Assembly: GCA_002495465.1 (NCBI GenBank)
Contig: DAFN01000016.1
Location: 23,679 to 40,089, forward strand
Length of the DNA: 16,411 nucleotides
Direction: 5' to 3'
From: an archaeon UBA55
Lineage (GTDB): Archaea; Undinarchaeota; Undinarchaeia; Undinarchaeales; Undinarchaeaceae
This document shows positions 1 through 12,558 of the stretch, one piece after another (within the stretch, counting starts at the first letter, position 1; the number at the start of each line of letters is the position of its first letter). The translations under genes and the position numbers were made by a program. The notes beneath the pieces are model-generated. The model had not been told where the DNA came from and ran no database searches. It saw only the letters and a list, made by a program, of their open reading frames with translations.

Positions 1-536
1 TCAACCCCAAGCTCACGGGCAAGGTAAGCGCATACTCGGTCGCCATTAACATTTAGGGGTTCTCCATTGTGACCAATTGCGAGAGGAGGTATAACTGGAA
101 TTTTTCCTTTAGAAAGTACTGAATTTAGACCATCAGAATCTATTCTCTCAATTTTTCCGCTTTGGTCTCCTCTCAGAATATACTTTTTCTCATTTTCAAT
201 AACTTTGATGGCTTCTTTTCTTTTAGCAAAAATTATTGGGCTTTCAGCGAAGCTGACTGCATCCATACCATTAGTTTTTAGGAGTTCAACGAGTTTTGAA
301 CTTTGCTCTCTGCATACTTCCTGATGAAGCAAGATAACTTCAGAGTCAGTATATCTGCACTTTATTCCGCTGACCGAATATACCCAGCGTGGCTCTTTTC
401 CGAGCCTCTCCTTAGTTAGTTTGTCAACTTGGGGACCGCTTCCATGAACGACAATAAAATCTTTATAGTTTGCAAGGTCTTTTACAATTTCCTCGCTCTG
501 GCTCAAAACACTACCACCGATTTTGACTATGAACAT
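1..536 (-). CDS. lysZ: LysZ/ArgB-type [LysW]-aminoadipate/glutamate kinase, partial (3' end outside window)
   Basis: Amino-acid kinase family enzyme that phosphorylates the side-chain carboxyl of alpha-aminoadipate (lysine) or glutamate (arginine) while the substrate is held on the carrier LysW. About 178 residues are visible. The N-terminal KIGGS loop, the glycine-rich VHGSG loop (families often have HGGG) and an LNVNGD motif late in the visible part mark the family. The ATG at 536 lies one base after the stop of the reductase gene, and no Shine-Dalgarno is visible, so translation probably depends on coupling. It is fourth in lysW-lysX-lysY-lysZ order. Substrate choice between lysine and arginine cannot be read from this piece; single-set archaea often use one enzyme for both. 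The C-terminal part lies left of position 1. Confidence 0.88.
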   Translation of the reverse strand, partial: MFIVKIGGSVLSQSEEIVKDLANYKDFIVVHGSGPQVDKLTKERLGKEPRWVYSVSGIKCRYTDSEVILLHQEVCREQSSKLVELLKTNGMDAVSFAESPIIFAKRKEAIKVIENEKKYILRGDQSGKIERIDSDGLNSVLSKGKIPVIPPLAIGHNGEPLNVNGDRVCAYLARELGV

Positions 537-537
537 C

Positions 538-1530
538 CTACGCTGGATATAGAGGCAGTGCTTCCAATCCAGTCTCCTCCTTTAATCCAAACATCAAGTT
601 CATGCACTGGATAGCCTGTCCGGATGCGCCTTTAACAAGATTGTCGATAGCGGAGAATACTACTGTTCTTTTGTGCTCTTCATCAGTCACGACACCGATA
701 TCGCAGTAGTTTGAGCCGACAACATATTTTGGATTTGGAAGGAATTTTGGATCCTTTGGTGTAATTCTGATGAAGGGAGAATCTTTGTAGAAATCTCTGT
801 AGAGTTTTGAAACATCTTCAGAAAAATCGGGTATGTGGCAGGTCGCCAGGATTCCTCTGACTAAATCAACCGCATGAGCTGTCATTGAAACCTCAAAGCC
901 GGTTTCCTGTTTAATTTCCTCTTGGTGTCTGTGGCTGGTGGGAGCGTAAGGACGAACGTTCCCTGCTCTGGCAGGATAGTGAGTTCCTGCATTTCCTGTA
1001 GATCCGGCAGCTGAGCCTCCGACTTTTACATCGATAATTGCTTTGTCAGCCTTTCCTTGAAGAGGAGCTAGAGCTAAGATACCTGCAGTTGCTTCACATC
1101 CCGTTCCTGAAACAAAATCTGCTTTCTTAATTTCTTCACGGTGAAGCTCAGGAAGTCCGTACACTGCTTTCTCAATAAGATTTGGAGCAGTGTGCTTTGC
1201 TCCGTAGGTTTTTTCCCAAATTTTGATGTCTTTAAGCCTGAAATCTGCGCTCAGGTCAATAACCTTAACACCAGTTTCTAGAAGTTCCGGGACTTTTTCC
1301 ATTGAAGCGGTATGAGGCAGAGCTAAAAATACAACATCTGCGTCTGCATCTTTTGTGTATTCAGTAAATCTTAGATTCAGATTTCGCATGCTGGGATGAG
1401 CCTTCCAGACGGATTTTCCAAGATACTTCCTGGATGTGATAGCGCTTATTTCGATATCAGGATGGCTATCAAGAATCCTTATTAAGTCCGCTCCTGTGTA
1501 ACCAGATGCGCCAATAATTGCTGCTTTCAT
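538..1530 (-). CDS. lysY: LysY/ArgC-type [LysW]-aminoadipyl/glutamyl phosphate reductase
   Basis: NADPH-dependent reductase that converts the carrier-bound acyl phosphate made by LysZ to a semialdehyde. The 330 residues match full family length. The N-terminal Rossmann motif GASGYTGADL begins at about residue 7, and the catalytic cysteine is in SGTGCEATAG in the middle of the protein. The genetic context with lysW and lysX points to the carrier-protein pathway rather than N-acetylglutamate metabolism, although the fold is that of ArgC. The ATG overlaps the lysX stop as ATGA, and the stop is one base from the lysZ start, so the genes are translationally coupled. It probably serves lysine, arginine or both. 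Confidence 0.9.
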   Translation of the reverse strand: MKAAIIGASGYTGADLIRILDSHPDIEISAITSRKYLGKSVWKAHPSMRNLNLRFTEYTKDADADVVFLALPHTASMEKVPELLETGVKVIDLSADFRLKDIKIWEKTYGAKHTAPNLIEKAVYGLPELHREEIKKADFVSGTGCEATAGILALAPLQGKADKAIIDVKVGGSAAGSTGNAGTHYPARAGNVRPYAPTSHRHQEEIKQETGFEVSMTAHAVDLVRGILATCHIPDFSEDVSKLYRDFYKDSPFIRITPKDPKFLPNPKYVVGSNYCDIGVVTDEEHKRTVVFSAIDNLVKGASGQAIQCMNLMFGLKEETGLEALPLYPA

Positions 1531-2369
1531 TTCCGTGCCTTCTCCACGACGTAGTCAATTACCTTTTTAGGGATATCAACGCCAGTCGGTTCAACAGAAT
1601 TTTTGAATTCCATTGTATAATTAACTTCATTCATCATTAAGCCATCTTTTCCTTCGAAAACATCCATTGCAAGAACTCCGCCACCGACTGCCTCTGCCGA
1701 TTTGAGACAAATTTCATTTAATTCCTCAGTAATTTCGCAATTTCTGGCGATTGCTCCGCGGGAAGTGTTAGTAATCCAGTGCTCTGATTCCCTGTAAATG
1801 GCTGCAATAGTGTCATCACCGACTACGAAGGCTCTTATATCTCTGCCAGGCTTCTCTATGTATTCCTGAATGTAGAAAATTGAGTGCATATATTCTCCAA
1901 GAACTTTTTTGTGCTCAAGAACTGCTTCCGCAGCATCTTTGTCATTGAGTTTTGCGCACATTCTTGCCCATGAACCAGTTACAGGTTTTATGACGCAGGG
2001 CCAGCCAAGCTCTTCCATAGCCTGGATAGCTGTTTCTTCTGTCAGAGCAACCCTTGTTTTAGGTGTTGGAATATTATGGTTCTCAAGTGCTAGTGAAGTA
2101 TATGCTTTGTCACCGCAGACCGTGGCAACATCAAAGGTGTTTACAGTGGGAATTCCGTAACTCTGGAAGAATTTTAGCGCATATAATGCGCGGGAATGAC
2201 TCACACTTCTTTCTAGTAAGATATCTATTCCAAAGTCTTGCTTCTCCAGACTCAAGTTTAGCTCTTTGTCATCTATCTTGACGATTTCTAAATTCCTTTT
2301 TCTCATCTCCTCTAGGAGCAGTTTTTCATCCTGCCTTATCTTGGAGTAGAGAAAGCCTACACGTAGCAT
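1527..2369 (-). CDS. lysX: LysX/ArgX, LysW--alpha-aminoadipate (or glutamate) ligase, ATP-grasp
   Basis: ATP-grasp ligase that joins the amino group of alpha-aminoadipate or glutamate to the C-terminal residue side chain of LysW, the first committed step. The 280-residue length fits the family. Visible family features are GDKAYTSLALE, PCVIKPVTGSW (ATP lysine), the FYIQEYI strand, EHWITNTSRGA in the substrate region and the metal-binding MNEVNYTMEFKN near the C terminus. The ATG at 2369 directly follows the lysW TAA with no gap. The codons for the Trp-Gly of the LysW tail supply a GGGGA sequence that can act as its ribosome site. The next gene overlaps by 4 nt. I cannot tell LysX from ArgX by motif with confidence. 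The partner carrier here ends in Gln, which bears directly on this enzyme's chemistry. Confidence 0.92.
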   Translation of the reverse strand: MLRVGFLYSKIRQDEKLLLEEMRKRNLEIVKIDDKELNLSLEKQDFGIDILLERSVSHSRALYALKFFQSYGIPTVNTFDVATVCGDKAYTSLALENHNIPTPKTRVALTEETAIQAMEELGWPCVIKPVTGSWARMCAKLNDKDAAEAVLEHKKVLGEYMHSIFYIQEYIEKPGRDIRAFVVGDDTIAAIYRESEHWITNTSRGAIARNCEITEELNEICLKSAEAVGGGVLAMDVFEGKDGLMMNEVNYTMEFKNSVEPTGVDIPKKVIDYVVEKARK

Positions 2370-2534
2370 TTATTGTCCCCAATCTTCGCCTTCAACTTCA
2401 GCGACTCTTAGTTCTCCCTTTTCAGCATTGACTACTTCTAGCTCGACACCGCATTCTGGGCAGTCGATGACTTCTCCTTTTTCAAGGCCTGCTGGAAGAC
2501 TTATTTCTGCTTCACATTCGATGCATTTGGTCAT
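2370..2534 (-). CDS. lysW: LysW/ArgW amino-group carrier protein, 54 aa, with C-terminal Gln
   Basis: Small acidic zinc protein that carries biosynthetic intermediates of lysine and/or arginine and shields their amino group. It is 54 residues long, the same as the characterised Thermus carrier. Four zinc ligands are visible: C4 and C7 (CIEC), C25 and C28 (CPEC). The tail is acidic and ends E50-D51-W52-G53-Q54. In the known family the tail is EDWGE and the gamma-carboxyl of the last Glu is the attachment point; here the last codon is CAA (Gln), read directly from positions 2373-2375 of the opposite strand. A strong ribosome site precedes the ATG. It is the first gene of the lys operon. The identity is secure; the terminal residue is the odd point. 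Confidence 0.93.
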   Translation of the reverse strand: MTKCIECEAEISLPAGLEKGEVIDCPECGVELEVVNAEKGELRVAEVEGEDWGQ

Positions 2535-4991: not shown

Positions 4992-7481
4992 ATGATAAAA
5001 CGACTAGAGCTTGAGGGTTTCAAGTCTTTTGATAAGAGATTATCTATTCCACTTTCTAAAGGATTCACAGCAGTAGTTGGTCCAAACGGCTCCGGGAAAT
5101 CAAACATAAGCGATGCTATTTGTTTTGTTCTTGGAAAGACCTCAGCAAAATCCATGCGAGCCGGAAAGCTGACTCAGTTAATTTTCAACGGAGGGAAAGG
5201 GAAAAAACCTGCAGCAAAAACGGAAGTTGCCCTGATTCTTGATAATTCTTCAAAGAAACTCCCTTATGACGAGGATGAGGTCTGCATAAGCAGAAGACTC
5301 ACCCAGAAAGGAACAATGAGTTATCGAATAAATGGGAAAAAGGTGACGAGAGCCGAGCTTGTAGATTTATTGTCATTCTCCGGTTTTGATCCAGAAGGTC
5401 ATAATATAATCCTCCAAGGAGATGTTACGAATTTTATTGACATGGATCCAATAGGGAGGCGCCAGATACTTGATGATATTTCAGGGATATCCGAATATGA
5501 TGATAAAAAGTTAAAAGCCCAAAAAGATCTCGATGTAGTAGAATCACGTGTAAAGGAGCTTATAATAGTGATGGGAGAGCGGAAGAAGCATCTGAGCGGA
5601 CTCAAGAAAGAGAGAGAGGATGCGGAAACTTATCTTTCTCTTAAAGACGAGCTCTCTGAAACTGAGGCAAATCTACTCTATACAAAGCTTAAGAATATTG
5701 AGAAGGAGGATGCCCGCTTCAAAGAGAAGTTGTCATCTGAGGAGGAAAAACTTTCCGAAGTAGAAACCGAATACTCACAGACAGGCTCAAATCTGGATAG
5801 CAAAGAAGAACACCTTTCTGATATAGATTCGAAACTCATAAAAGAAGGAGGGGAGGACCGTGTCAACATAGGGACGGAGATAGAGCACTTTATCGGGCAA
5901 ATTTCTATCAATAAAAGCAAGACTGAGTCAAAACAGTCAGAAATATCCCACCTCGACGGACTTATAGCAAAGCTTCAGTCTATGAGTGGAGAGAGGACGA
6001 GCGCGATTTGCAATACTCTGAAAGATGAGGTAGATGGAGTTTATGGAACTGTTGGCTCACTCTTTACAGTGGATCAGAAATACGCAGTAGCTATTGAATC
6101 AGCTCTTGGGAGCAGAAACAATTTTATTATTGTTGAAAATGAGGACACTGCTATAAAATGTGTCAACTTCCTGAAATCTGAAAAAATGGGAAGAGCGACC
6201 TTCCTCCCAATTAATAAGATGCGAGGTCCCAAGCCCGAGCCAAGAAGTGGAAGTGGAATAGTAGGTCCGGCCAGGAAGCTCATAAGCTGTGATGATCGCT
6301 ACAGTAATGTGTTCAGCTATGTTCTTGGAAATACCTATATTGTCAACAGTCTGAAGGAGGTACGGAGTCTCATAGGAAAGATGAGAATGGTGTCACTCGA
6401 CGGAGATGTGGCTGAGAGGAGCGGGGCAATAACTGGCGGATTTAAGAAGAGAAGGAAAACCGCTACATCAGAAATAGATGAGTACGTAAAGAGTAGGGAC
6501 AAGCTTCTGGATGAAATAGGGGAGCTACAACTGCAGACTTCTGAGATTGAAAAAGAACTGAAACATAAACAGGTACAGTCTGAGCAGCTTGGCCAGGATT
6601 TTGAAGGATTACAGAAAGAGCGGGAAACACTTCTCGAAGAGATAAGTAGCCTCAAGGTTAAAAGAGATGATTTGTCTTCCCAGCGTGACAATGCCCGAAG
6701 ATCCATTGGGGATCTCAGAATAGAAAAAGCCAGGGTAGATGCCGGACTTACTGATTTACAGATAAGTATGAAAAAATTTGAGGGTCGTGAAATGCGGGAG
6801 ATAGATGCTGACAAAATGGAGAAATCTCTTTCTACGATAAAAAGGCAGATGGAAACCTTAGAGCCTGTAAATATGAAAGCGATAGACTTATACAAAACTT
6901 CTCTTGCTGATTTTGAGTCCTTTAATGAGCGCTTTACAACCTTACAGGATGAACGAAATGCAGTTCTTAATTTCATAGAAGATATTGAGCTAAAAAAGAA
7001 AGGTGTGTTTATGAAAGTCTTCGATAAAGTCTCAGAGGAATTCAGCACAATTTTCCCCAAGCTATCTATGAAGGGAGAAGGAAGATTGTATCTTGAAAAT
7101 GAGGAGGATCCTCTTTCTGGAGGTCTGAATATAGAGGCAAGCCCCGCAGGGAAGAAAATCACAAGTCTTGAACTTCTCAGCGGAGGGGAAAAGGTTGTGA
7201 CAGCTCTGGCGTTCATCTTCGCTCTGCAGAGATACAAGCCAGCGCATTTCTATGTTCTTGATGAAGTTGATGCTGCTCTCGACCAAAACAATTCAATGCG
7301 CTTCATAAATCTTCTAACTGATATTATGAAAGATTCTCAGGTTTTGTTGGTCAGTCACAATAATGCTGTAATTAAAAAAGCGGACAGACTATTTGGTGTT
7401 TCAATGACTGAGAGAGGGACCTCCCAGCTTGTAGGTATGGAAATGGGAGAACTGGAGGAAAAGGGAGGACAGGTAAATTAA
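4992..7481 (+). CDS. smc: Chromosome segregation SMC ATPase with short coiled-coil arms
   Basis: Ring-forming ATPase that organises and segregates the chromosome with kleisin partners. Walker A GPNGSGKS is at residues 30-37. The first coiled coil runs from about 165 to 335 and the hinge from about 337 to 485 (DGVYGTVGSL near 347, GAITGGF near 478). The second coil runs to about 655 (LEPVNMKA near 623), then the C-terminal ATPase lobe with LLSGGEKVV and Walker B FYVLDEVDAALD. The head and hinge motifs are all intact, but the total is 829 residues against roughly 1,150-1,200 for typical SMC, so each arm is about half length. It has no zinc-hook CXXC, so it is not Rad50. Its TAA overlaps the scpA ATG as TAATG. 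Confidence 0.95.
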   Translation: MIKRLELEGFKSFDKRLSIPLSKGFTAVVGPNGSGKSNISDAICFVLGKTSAKSMRAGKLTQLIFNGGKGKKPAAKTEVALILDNSSKKLPYDEDEVCISRRLTQKGTMSYRINGKKVTRAELVDLLSFSGFDPEGHNIILQGDVTNFIDMDPIGRRQILDDISGISEYDDKKLKAQKDLDVVESRVKELIIVMGERKKHLSGLKKEREDAETYLSLKDELSETEANLLYTKLKNIEKEDARFKEKLSSEEEKLSEVETEYSQTGSNLDSKEEHLSDIDSKLIKEGGEDRVNIGTEIEHFIGQISINKSKTESKQSEISHLDGLIAKLQSMSGERTSAICNTLKDEVDGVYGTVGSLFTVDQKYAVAIESALGSRNNFIIVENEDTAIKCVNFLKSEKMGRATFLPINKMRGPKPEPRSGSGIVGPARKLISCDDRYSNVFSYVLGNTYIVNSLKEVRSLIGKMRMVSLDGDVAERSGAITGGFKKRRKTATSEIDEYVKSRDKLLDEIGELQLQTSEIEKELKHKQVQSEQLGQDFEGLQKERETLLEEISSLKVKRDDLSSQRDNARRSIGDLRIEKARVDAGLTDLQISMKKFEGREMREIDADKMEKSLSTIKRQMETLEPVNMKAIDLYKTSLADFESFNERFTTLQDERNAVLNFIEDIELKKKGVFMKVFDKVSEEFSTIFPKLSMKGEGRLYLENEEDPLSGGLNIEASPAGKKITSLELLSGGEKVVTALAFIFALQRYKPAHFYVLDEVDAALDQNNSMRFINLLTDIMKDSQVLLVSHNNAVIKKADRLFGVSMTERGTSQLVGMEMGELEEKGGQVN

Positions 7482-8158
7482 TGGAACTTAATCTGGACCA
7501 AATATTGCAAAGTGAGAGAGCCTGGGAGTATGTTCTTCTGGATATTGTTCGCTCGGAAAATTTGGATCCGTGGGATATTGACATATCACGGCTTACAGCA
7601 AAGTATACAGAAAGAATTAACCAGATGAAGGAGTTTGATCTCAAAGTTCCGGCCAGGCTTCTCTTAGCAGCGGCAATCCTGCTCAGAATGAAGTCTGACA
7701 GGCTGGTTGACTCTGAGGAGAGAGAAGCATATGAGGAACTTCTCAGAGGAGATGAAGAATTCCTCTTTGGAGACGATGACGAGGAAAGCGGGCCAAGTGA
7801 GGAAGTTCCTCTTCTTACTTTAATCACTAAGAGAAAGCATCTCCGAAAAATAACGCTTGAAGATCTTATAGGGAAACTTGAAGTTTCTATGCGACCCAAG
7901 GAAAGGAAGGTGAAGATAGAGCCCTTTGTCTTGGTATTTGATGAAGTTGATATAACTGAACAGATAGAGGCACTTTATACAAAAATAATGGGAAGTACGA
8001 AGGATAAAATACCTTTTGACGACCTTTTACCTTCGAAAACTAGGGAAGACCTGATAAACACTTTAATGCCACTTCTTCATTTGGCAAATGACAGTAAGGT
8101 AAAGCTTGTTCAAGAAAAGCTTTTTGAAGAGCTTTATGTTCTTTCTGAGAAAAATTAG
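7481..8158 (+). CDS. scpA: Segregation and condensation protein A (kleisin)
   Basis: Kleisin subunit that bridges the two heads of the SMC dimer. The 225-residue length is normal for archaeal ScpA. The N-terminal helical region contains LLDIVRSENLDPWDIDIS, typical of the SMC-neck-binding part, then PARLLLAAAILLRMKSDRL. An acidic linker of Glu/Asp/Gly spans about residues 84-108, and a C-terminal winged-helix region ends in LFEELYVLSE. The ATG shares its A with the smc stop, and AGGT (7471-7474) and GGGAGG (7463-7468) precede it. No scpB follows: the next gene is on the opposite strand, with its stop only 2 nt away. ScpB may be encoded elsewhere or missing. Confidence 0.93.
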   Translation: MELNLDQILQSERAWEYVLLDIVRSENLDPWDIDISRLTAKYTERINQMKEFDLKVPARLLLAAAILLRMKSDRLVDSEEREAYEELLRGDEEFLFGDDDEESGPSEEVPLLTLITKRKHLRKITLEDLIGKLEVSMRPKERKVKIEPFVLVFDEVDITEQIEALYTKIMGSTKDKIPFDDLLPSKTREDLINTLMPLLHLANDSKVKLVQEKLFEELYVLSEKN

Positions 8159-8160
8159 CT

Positions 8161-9249
8161 CTAAAGACCTATGTTGAGGACTAGGGTATCGCCAACTTTT
8201 CCGAAGCCGACCATTTTTCTTTTTATTTTGTGAATTGCCACAGTCAGGTCGGGTTTTACGTGGACCTTGGTACCTATACCAGAGGGGACATCAACAGAAA
8301 CTATCACTGCCTTTGAATTGTTTATTTTAGATATTGCACTTTTTATTGGGTCTTTTACAGATCCTTCTGAGCCAGTTCCCAGAAGACAGTCAAGAATTAT
8401 GTCGGCTTTTATATTTTCAAGATCCTTTGAACTAAGAACGACTGCAATATTTGTCTTTTTTTCAAGAGAGAGGCTTTTGAACTCTTTTGATTCAGGGCTG
8501 TGTGGTTCTCCAAAGGAGAGAACTTCTATATTTGCTCCCTTTTCCTTCAGATAAAGCGCTGCCGAATAGCCGTCTCCTCCATTATTTCCGGGACCGCAGT
8601 AAATAGCTATCTTTTTTCCTTCGACTCCGAATCTTTTGTCAAGAATTTCTGCGAGGCCTTTTCCGACATTATCCATAAGCTGGCGGACAGGAATTTCGGA
8701 AGCTTGTTCAGCATTTAGCATTTCATCACAAGTTATGAAATCAGCTAGCTCAGAATGGAGGAGGTCGCTCATTGCAACCTGTGTTGAAACTTCTCCGAAT
8801 TTTTCTACAAAACCGGCTCTGAATTCTGTGTAGCTTGTTATTTTGTCAAAGGCCACCAGATTATCTCCGTATGCAACTATTTTTTGCTCAAGTGTTTCAG
8901 GTATGAAATCTTCATCAGGCAGTCCTTTTACAACTGCTTCTTCTTTTGGGATTCCTGAACCGACGTGGTTTCTTGCGCAGAGTGCAACTTCTTCAGGGAC
9001 ACCGAGTTCAAGAAGTATCTTGTAACCTTCGAAACCTTGTCTTACACCGCCATCGATGACTCTTCCGACATCATGGAGAAGAGCGCCGTAATTTACAATT
9101 TCTTTGTCAGGATAAATGCCTCTAGCTTCCAATGCCTTTACGACCTTGTCACAGCTTTTTTTGACAGTTTTGCAATGCGTTCGGAGAGGCTTGGGCATTT
9201 CTACGGCGTCCCAAATAGCCTCGACATCAATTTTCGTTTTTCTTTTCAC
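8161..9249 (-). CDS. HD-domain hydrolase fused to NAD(P)HX epimerase (YjeF_N) domain
   Basis: Two-domain protein of 362 residues. Residues 1 to about 150 carry an HD phosphohydrolase pattern: H25, H59-D60 (LLHDVGR), H95 (RNHVG) and D129 (YGDNL). The His usually following the HD in the glycine-helix segment is not seen. Residues from about 172 form a YjeF_N/NnrE-type domain with GPGNNGGDG at 219-227, an Asp in DCLLGTG and VSVDVPSGI. The latter family epimerises damaged NAD(P)H hydrates. In most archaea YjeF_N is fused to the ADP-dependent dehydratase; that domain is absent here. The start is GTG at 9249, inside the glutaredoxin gene (23-nt overlap), with GGAG seven bases upstream. The combined function is unknown; a nucleotide or cofactor clean-up role is inference. 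Confidence 0.85.
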   Translation of the reverse strand: MKRKTKIDVEAIWDAVEMPKPLRTHCKTVKKSCDKVVKALEARGIYPDKEIVNYGALLHDVGRVIDGGVRQGFEGYKILLELGVPEEVALCARNHVGSGIPKEEAVVKGLPDEDFIPETLEQKIVAYGDNLVAFDKITSYTEFRAGFVEKFGEVSTQVAMSDLLHSELADFITCDEMLNAEQASEIPVRQLMDNVGKGLAEILDKRFGVEGKKIAIYCGPGNNGGDGYSAALYLKEKGANIEVLSFGEPHSPESKEFKSLSLEKKTNIAVVLSSKDLENIKADIILDCLLGTGSEGSVKDPIKSAISKINNSKAVIVSVDVPSGIGTKVHVKPDLTVAIHKIKRKMVGFGKVGDTLVLNIGL

Positions 9250-9469: not shown

Positions 9470-9475
9470 TTGAAT

Positions 9476-9547
9476 AGCCCCGCTCGGATTCGAACCGAGG
9501 TCGCCGGGACCAAAACCCGGTATGATTGACCACTACACCACGGGGCT
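9476..9547 (-). tRNA. trnQ-UUG: tRNA-Gln(UUG)
   Basis: A 72-nt cloverleaf on the minus strand. The acceptor is AGCCCCG/CGGGGCT (7 bp), the D stem is GTG/CAT, and the anticodon stem CCGGG/CCCGG encloses loop TTTTGGT with anticodon TTG. The variable loop is 4 nt, and the T arm is CTCGG-TTCGAAT-CCGAG. No intron is present and CCA is not encoded. The first acceptor pair is A1-U72, the feature by which archaeal GatDE recognises tRNA-Gln for amidation of Glu-tRNA-Gln, so an indirect route is likely. Glutaredoxin starts 6 nt downstream. Confidence 0.96.
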
Positions 9548-12187: not shown

Positions 12188-12210
12188 TTTCAGTATTGCT
12201 AATCACTGTT

Positions 12211-12558
12211 ATGGTTATTAAGTACGAGCCTGCTCCTGACGTGAAAAAGCGCCTTGTTGAGCTTATCACGGAGAATGGTTTTTCTAATGTAGATCCGAGC
12301 AAAATATACTGCTTTCGGAGTCGTGGCTCAAAATCGAAGAGAATATTAGCTAGAATTTGGAGTTTTCCGAAAATTTGGCAGATGGCCCTCTTCATGCCGC
12401 CACGTTATGTGATAGAAGTTCTCTCTGAAAGATATGACAAACTTTCGAAGGAAAAGCAGGACTATGTTTTGATACATGAACTAAAGCATATTCCAAAGAA
12501 GTTCAGTGGCGGCTTGAGAACGCATCATACAGAAAATCCGAAGCATTTGCGGAAGTGA
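12211..12558 (+). CDS. Small putative zinc metallopeptidase (HELKH)
   Basis: Protein of 115 residues. A HExxH zinc motif is at 89-93 (VLIHELKHIP), followed by H105/H106 as a candidate third ligand in RTHHTENPKH. This layout resembles the small archaeal and phage metallopeptidase-like families; the substrate is unknown. The N-terminal half is basic (SRGSKSKRILAR) and mentions no membrane helix or signal. ATG 12211 is preferred over an in-frame TTG at 12196 because it lies the right distance from a TATA box and fits a leaderless message. The gene is divergent from mscS and converges on a small membrane-peptide gene with only 10 nt between; T-rich CCTTTTTATTT follows its stop. Confidence 0.65.
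   Translation: MVIKYEPAPDVKKRLVELITENGFSNVDPSKIYCFRSRGSKSKRILARIWSFPKIWQMALFMPPRYVIEVLSERYDKLSKEKQDYVLIHELKHIPKKFSGGLRTHHTENPKHLRK

Follow-up and report, generated by a model that had tools for sequence, protein, structure and literature searches.

A LysW carrier homologue ending in glutamine in Undinarchaeota, and Gln-ended carriers among ammonia-oxidising and other archaea

The closest described relatives of the protein considered here are the LysW and ArgW amino-group carriers of Thermus, Sulfolobus, Thermococcus and Natrinema. The terminal glutamate (Glu) of LysW is the attachment site on which the whole pathway depends and the known linkage is to its gamma-carboxyl, as set out in the available sections of two papers (PMC9303977, PMC10433800). 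A stretch of 16,411 nucleotides from the archaeon UBA55 of the Undinarchaeota (contig DAFN01000016.1, positions 23,679 to 40,089; referred to as the window) carries the gene of a carrier that shares with them the zinc-ribbon domain, the length and the acidic EDWG tail, and that is likewise followed downstream by genes for a ligase, a reductase, a kinase and an aminotransferase, but in which the acceptor Glu is encoded as glutamine (Gln). The Gln tail, on which an earlier note on this DNA had remarked, proves to be real, and its scope is far wider than that note supposed, taking in most of the sampled ammonia oxidisers. A search of the open-licence literature, where such an absence is weak, found no description of a Gln-ended LysW or of an extra activation step.

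The carrier of the window, its operon and its nearest relatives

Positions 2370-2534 of the window (minus strand) translate to MTKCIECEAEISLPAGLEKGEVIDCPECGVELEVVNAEKGELRVAEVEGEDWGQ and then a TAA stop. The encoded tail is EDWGQ, where the standard acceptor tail is EDWGE, and the 54-residue carrier with this ending that the earlier note described is borne out by the translation, the terminal codon being CAA. The Gln-ended tail is genuine, and the protein is therefore called a LysW homologue and not a standard LysW. The LysW domain is matched at 56.3 bits against a Pfam cut-off of 27 (PF21344), with four cysteines (Cys) arranged as two CxxC pairs, and it is of consequence for annotation that the protein scores beneath the curated LysW cut-offs of NCBIfam (61.1 against 75 for NF041070, 35.3 against 53.2 for TIGR01206). 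The solved LysW structures that it matches, three distinct sequences (3wwl, 3vpb, 5k2m), all have EDWGE as their tail. It is the single LysW found in its genome (G000, 613 kb, 75.6% complete). The features concerned are as follows.

2370-2534, minus strand: lysW, 54-residue zinc-ribbon amino-group carrier with the tail EDWGQ
2373-2375, minus strand (TTG on the plus strand): terminal lysW codon CAA (Gln), Glu in characterised LysW
1527-2369, minus strand: lysX, carrier ligase of the ATP-grasp type (TIGR02144, 348.2 bits, cut-off 275.6)
538-1530, minus strand: lysY/argC-type reductase (TIGR01850, 392.1 bits)
1-536, minus strand: lysZ-type kinase, start of the gene only, the remainder lying left of the window
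L018 6306-7466, same contig, left of the window: lysJ, following lysZ
L018 5641-6309, minus strand: class-I glutaminase-fold gene, 222 residues, last of the operon (PF00117, 68.4 bits, cut-off 22.8)
L019 11684-12352, plus strand, and L021 4529-5200, minus strand: last gene of the lys operon in Undinarchaeota, of class-I glutaminase fold
9475-9547, minus strand: tRNA-Gln, anticodon TTG (decodes CAA), of relevance only to an explanation by decoding that is weighed below

The 3' end of lysW reads GAA GAT TGG GGA CAA TAA, with the start codon of lysX directly after the stop, and the order on the minus strand is lysW, lysX, lysY, lysZ, lysJ and the glutaminase-fold gene, so that the LysX, LysY, LysZ and LysJ of a LysW/ArgW operon are all present behind the carrier. 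LysZ had been thought intact, which is not so in this assembly, where lysZ is split by two Ns (L018 7678-7679) just left of the window; in a second genome of the genus (G001) the gene is open and encodes 259 residues.

When the tail was checked across the clade, EDWGQ was found in all three searched genomes of the genus (G000, G001 and G002), and in a genome of a neighbouring family of the same order (G003) LysW ends in EDWGE. A LysW match was also looked for in G004 and G005 and none was obtained. Between G000 and G001 the ratio of non-synonymous to synonymous substitution rates (dN/dS) is 0.09 for both lysX and lysY, 0.11 for the glutaminase-fold gene, 0.12 for lysJ and 0.13 for lysW, where there are just six changes, to be compared with 0.10 for aspS and 0.125 for rnhB, and the five operon genes are therefore under purifying selection in this pair. 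In G002 the lysW gene is kept with its Gln tail (L020, about 7368-7620), followed by merely a 27-residue match to LysX, and lysY through the glutaminase-fold gene are absent from the spot behind it; thus one genome of the genus has lost the operon or lacks it at this spot. The view that decay of the pathway is unlikely is therefore upheld by G000 and G001, but not by G002. A homocitrate-synthase-type gene (PF00682) was not found in G000-G002 (genomes 75.6 to 86% complete), despite which the LysX of the genus carries a specificity motif of the asparagine (Asn) type.

Distribution of Gln-ended carriers among archaea

A scan of named DNA records for GEDWGQ followed by a stop gave at least 119 stretches, and those listed were read individually. 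They comprise 104 that belong to LysW, whole or truncated, and 15 chance matches, 14 of the latter being bacterial and one lying in a record titled Euryarchaeota. The titles of the LysW records listed name Nitrosopumilus, Nitrosarchaeum, Nitrosotalea, Nitrosotenuis, Nitrosopelagicus, Cenarchaeum, Nitrososphaera, Nitrosocosmicus, Nitrosocaldus and similar organisms, with two Jordarchaeia records and one Undinarchaeales record besides. Within one class, EDWGQ and a stop occur in 107 of the 150 genomes drawn, a count of the presence of a pattern that also passes TGG as a stop and not of matches read one by one. By hand count these make up 107 of the 110 genomes in three families (f7, f80 and f83), which are equated by sequence likeness with Nitrosopumilus-, Nitrosocaldus- and Nitrososphaera-type families, and 0 of the 40 genomes in nine other families.

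A broad draw of 394 archaea contains 18 that match the same pattern, three in the genus of the window, 11 in f7, two in f183, one in f168 and G532. This last was rejected as a Gln-ended LysW, as was G267:C1:1952672, because both read on into tryptophan (Trp), and G090 was rejected because its match falls outside any LysW. In G167 (f74) there are two copies of LysW, one Gln-ended and one Glu-ended. Beyond the ammonia oxidisers at least three further archaeal lineages have a Gln-ended LysW, and the trait, being common to most of the sampled ammonia oxidisers as well, is therefore not peculiar to the organism of the window.

Both CAA and CAG are used for the terminal Gln. In 76 genomes of the class there are seven matches to EDWG with some other last codon and a stop, a pattern that would miss a LysW with an altered EDWG; six were fetched and none is a LysW, and the seventh (G380) has TGG and no stop. 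A profile search biased towards Gln gave, in the best 120 of thousands of matches, 112 Gln-ended proteins, three Glu-ended proteins and five that continue past EDWG. LysW-like proteins from metagenomes that run on in this way are P0026, P0032, P0087, P0120 and P0096, and in four of the five Trp seems to stand in place of the stop that would follow Gln or Glu. Amongst 113 bacterial-type proteins (P0133-P0245, again the best of thousands) the last residue is Glu in 107, Gln in two, glycine (Gly) in two, lysine (Lys) in one and alanine (Ala) in one.

Paired carriers and the LysX ligase

Ammonia oxidisers often carry two LysW, one of arginine type and one of lysine type, with Gln on either or both. 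In the ammonia-oxidiser loci that were read the first LysW stands after argG and before an ArgX-type lysX, and the second is accompanied by lysK and another lysX and in most cases lies behind a homocitrate-synthase-type gene. The specificity motif of the ligase agrees with this assignment, being glycine-leucine (Gly-Leu) or Gly-Ala beside the first carrier and asparagine-threonine (Asn-Thr) or asparagine-valine (Asn-Val) beside the second; in Sulfolobus LysX is marked by Asn-Thr and ArgX by glycine-phenylalanine (Gly-Phe), according to the available text of PMC10433800. Both carriers were read in 42 genomes or records, in 22 of which the arginine side has Glu and the lysine side Gln (the arrangement of G154), whilst Gln is on both sides in 11, on the arginine side with Glu on the lysine side in seven, and Glu is on both in one; a further one has both kinds of tail on the lysine side. 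Gln is therefore tied to neither product. G315 has Glu on both, which led to the rejection of a rule requiring Gln on one carrier or more; in G440 a single LysW was found, which is Glu-ended.

In three single-contig genomes (G407, G400 and G267) one LysW each was found and it is Gln-ended. They belong to genus g138, which is Nitrosocosmicus by sequence likeness, and the sole LysW found in G407 (L273) has for neighbours argG, two lysX, lysY, lysZ and lysJ, together with lysK and a homocitrate-synthase-type gene. In the portion of PMC7490402 available, chemoautotrophic growth is ascribed to ammonia oxidisers, and a Nitrosocosmicus enrichment was maintained in mineral medium with antibiotics over a period exceeding five years, as stated in the accessible part of PMC6657660. 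Thus, the Gln-ended carrier works, unless these organisms have another route. Where Glu- and Gln-ended carriers occur in one genome, the loci read hold one set of lysY, lysZ, lysJ and lysK.

The change between the two tails has been frequent. The ligases compared are 218 distinct LysX whose gene stands behind that of a LysW; the carrier is Glu-ended for 56 of them and Gln-ended for 162, a sampling biased to Gln, and a tree of 119 dereplicated LysX has at least 10 changes between Glu and Gln, nine of them forced by well supported branches; such natural switching provides ready-made pairs for comparison. No column of LysX clearly tracks the switches, the best reaching a net 4.5 of nine independent pairs, which is what would be expected if LysX always meets Glu. 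An arginine near the N terminus of LysX (kept column 11) was rejected as an adaptation to Gln since it follows clades and not switches, with about 1.7 of the nine pairs going the same way and 7.3 showing no difference. The GSWGR motif was rejected as tail-dependent in ligases of the ammonia-oxidiser type, where there is no difference by tail: of the LysXb, 128 of 130 with Gln and 14 of 14 with Glu have it, as do 27 of 28 LysXa with Gln and 26 of 36 with Glu, the rest being missed by the search expression. In the ligase class nearest to the LysX of the window, the Gln rows have two GSWAR and two GSWGR, and the Glu rows one GSWAR, three GSWGR and two missed by the search expression. The LysX of the window itself has GSWAR, where most relatives have GSWGR, and that of G003 has GSWGR.

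Elsewhere in the window, positions 4992-7481 (plus strand) encode an SMC-type protein of 829 residues with N-terminal and hinge domains, a length that seems short for an SMC protein. A single open reading frame at 8161-9249 (minus strand) combines a match to the HD domain with a YjeF_N (NAD(P)HX epimerase-type) domain behind it, and a small protein at 12196-12558 (plus strand) has a match to PhageMetallopep (PF18894).

A possible maturation step, its alternatives and its parallels

Gln is generally found on at least one carrier in the ammonia-oxidiser families, with no Glu-ended copy seen in some genomes, and thus either a maturation step is missing from the map of the pathway or the linkage differs. 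ATP-grasp enzymes do not usually activate a gamma-amide. The usual activation of the gamma-carboxyl needs Glu, so the earlier note was right to hold a terminal Gln unsuited to this chemistry, and either an extra step or another reaction is needed. The side chain of residue 54 matters, as E54A abolishes arginine synthesis in Natrinema and results in auxotrophy (available text of PMC10433800).

It is proposed that LysW is synthesised in an amide-capped form (Gln54), which would be deamidated once to Glu54 before LysX acts; the gamma-carboxyl thus exposed would then receive the amino acid from LysX, as it does in ordinary LysW, with the carrier being reused. The restriction of the tail to Glu and Gln, the effect of E54A, the single set of later enzymes and a ligase without visible adaptation all fit a conversion of Gln to Glu before LysX, and deamidation ahead of ligation is likely. 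The most economical maturase would be the hydrolase that frees the product at the end of the pathway, where it cuts the same gamma-glutamyl bond; this may be LysK (an M20 protein) in ammonia oxidisers and Jordarchaeia and the glutaminase-fold enzyme in Undinarchaeota. This double role for the release hydrolase is conceivable but somewhat doubtful, whilst the explanation taken whole, an amide-capped acceptor that is deamidated with the release hydrolase as maturase, has about an even chance of being right.

In both ammonia oxidisers and the Jordarchaeia operon (L068) the gene lysK adjoins a Gln-ended lysW, and the latter operon is complete behind it. In the Undinarchaeota lineage the glutaminase-fold enzyme is likely to be the release enzyme, as a stand-in for LysK, and could in principle deamidate Gln54. 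Its residues C87, H172 and E174 are invariant in 3/3 sequences, and Cys, histidine and Glu form the catalytic triad of the class-I glutaminase fold. Among 197 archaea the gene is strongly matched in G000, G001 and G003 only, with a weaker partial match in G549 and no match in G002, which lost the operon. In G003, where a search for an M20 protein gave no match at all (genome 98% complete), the lys operon likewise ends in the glutaminase-fold gene. The best match of its predicted structure is gamma-glutamyl peptidase 1, narrowly ahead of other glutaminase-fold proteins.

A number of points weigh against this account. What has been shown is at the level of sequence, and deamidation, its timing and its enzyme are inferred; the covariation test on LysX is of low power, its nine pairs being few enough for a weak effect to escape. 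Among the 113 bacterial-type LysW-like proteins there are four with Lys, Gly or Ala as last residue. G003, whose LysW is Glu-ended, has the glutaminase-fold gene too; the gene is therefore not tied to Gln, and a simple rule making it a Gln-specific deamidase was rejected. G000-G002 have one M20 protein each (26% identity to LysK for that of G000), which could be a release enzyme. Matched by sequence, the glutaminase-fold protein is best hit by GMP synthase glutaminase subunits (1e-14), ahead of gamma-glutamyl peptidase 1 (2e-10), and its fold model is of moderate confidence, with a mean predicted local distance difference test score (pLDDT) of 67.

Other explanations have been considered. Sequencing or assembly error, which the earlier note had allowed for, can be practically dismissed, as Gln recurs in two further assemblies of the genus, so that its relatives do not all end in Glu, and in 104 named archaeal stretches among the matches listed, by way of CAA as well as CAG. 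LysX might require no deamidation if it attached its substrate at the alpha-carboxyl that ends the main chain, for which Glu and Gln would be equivalent. LysX is a member of the RimK family, some relatives in which do ligate to the main-chain alpha-carboxyl, and the frequent interchange of Glu and Gln with no LysX column clearly tracking it would agree with this, but residues besides Glu and Gln would then be expected at the end of the carrier, of which there are none in the class among the matches read, and the two kinds of carrier in one genome stand with a single set of genes for the later enzymes in the loci read. With the known bond being to the gamma-carboxyl (PMC9303977, PMC10433800) and E54A not being tolerated in Natrinema (PMC10433800), so far as the available text of these sources goes, such a linkage is unlikely.

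It could also be that no dedicated maturase is needed, with leaky decoding or slow spontaneous deamidation making some of the carrier Glu-ended, which would suffice since the carrier is recycled. Archaea form Gln-tRNA by way of Glu-tRNA-Gln, and the tRNA-Gln of the window establishes that a decoder of CAA exists and nothing more. This would explain both the Glu- or Gln-only tails in the class and the unchanged LysX; it is improbable all the same, as family-wide conservation of Gln would be odd for a costly leak on which genomes with a single, Gln-ended LysW would depend wholly. That the Gln-ended protein is not an acceptor at all, but a decoy, a regulator, a structural partner or the relic of a dying pathway, might be suggested by the many ammonia oxidisers that also have a Glu-ended carrier (22 of the 42, where the arginine-type carrier has Glu and the lysine-type one Gln), by the operon gone from behind lysW in G002 and by the missing PF00682 match in G000-G002. 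This is very unlikely given the 11 of 42 cases with Gln on both carriers, the sole Gln-ended LysW of G407, G400 and G267, the purifying selection between G000 and G001, and the complete operon of the Jordarchaeia.

The proposed deamidation of LysW has its nearest parallel in Pup and Dop of Actinobacteria, where a small protein tag also has its acceptor encoded as Gln in some species and as Glu in others. Gln-ended Pup is deamidated by Dop, which makes the analogy drawn in the earlier note an apt one, and Dop also cleaves the finished isopeptide bond (both in the available passages of PMC8223512 and PMC7947786), thus providing a precedent for one enzyme with both jobs. The carrier of the window differs in serving amino acid synthesis, and deamidation is known for Pup whereas it is hypothetical for LysW; Pfam and NCBIfam scans gave no match of the carrier to the Pup family. 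It is suggested, as a tentative reading, that ammonia oxidisers, Undinarchaeota, Jordarchaeia and others make an amide-capped pro-carrier unmasked by the hydrolase that releases the product, an independent invention resembling Pup-Gln and Dop. If true, some of the most abundant archaea would be relying on such logic for core amino acid synthesis.

A second parallel is with the gamma-glutamyl peptidases of the class-I glutaminase fold, such as Arabidopsis gamma-glutamyl peptidase 1, which have the same fold as the last gene of the operon, although the GMP synthase glutaminase subunits are closer to it in sequence. These peptidases hydrolyse gamma-glutamyl amides, and the putative substrate of the Undinarchaeota enzyme would be the tail of LysW. 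Taken together, the Gln-ended LysW is confirmed and much enlarged in scope, its deamidation is likely, and it appears as a variant of the known carrier system.
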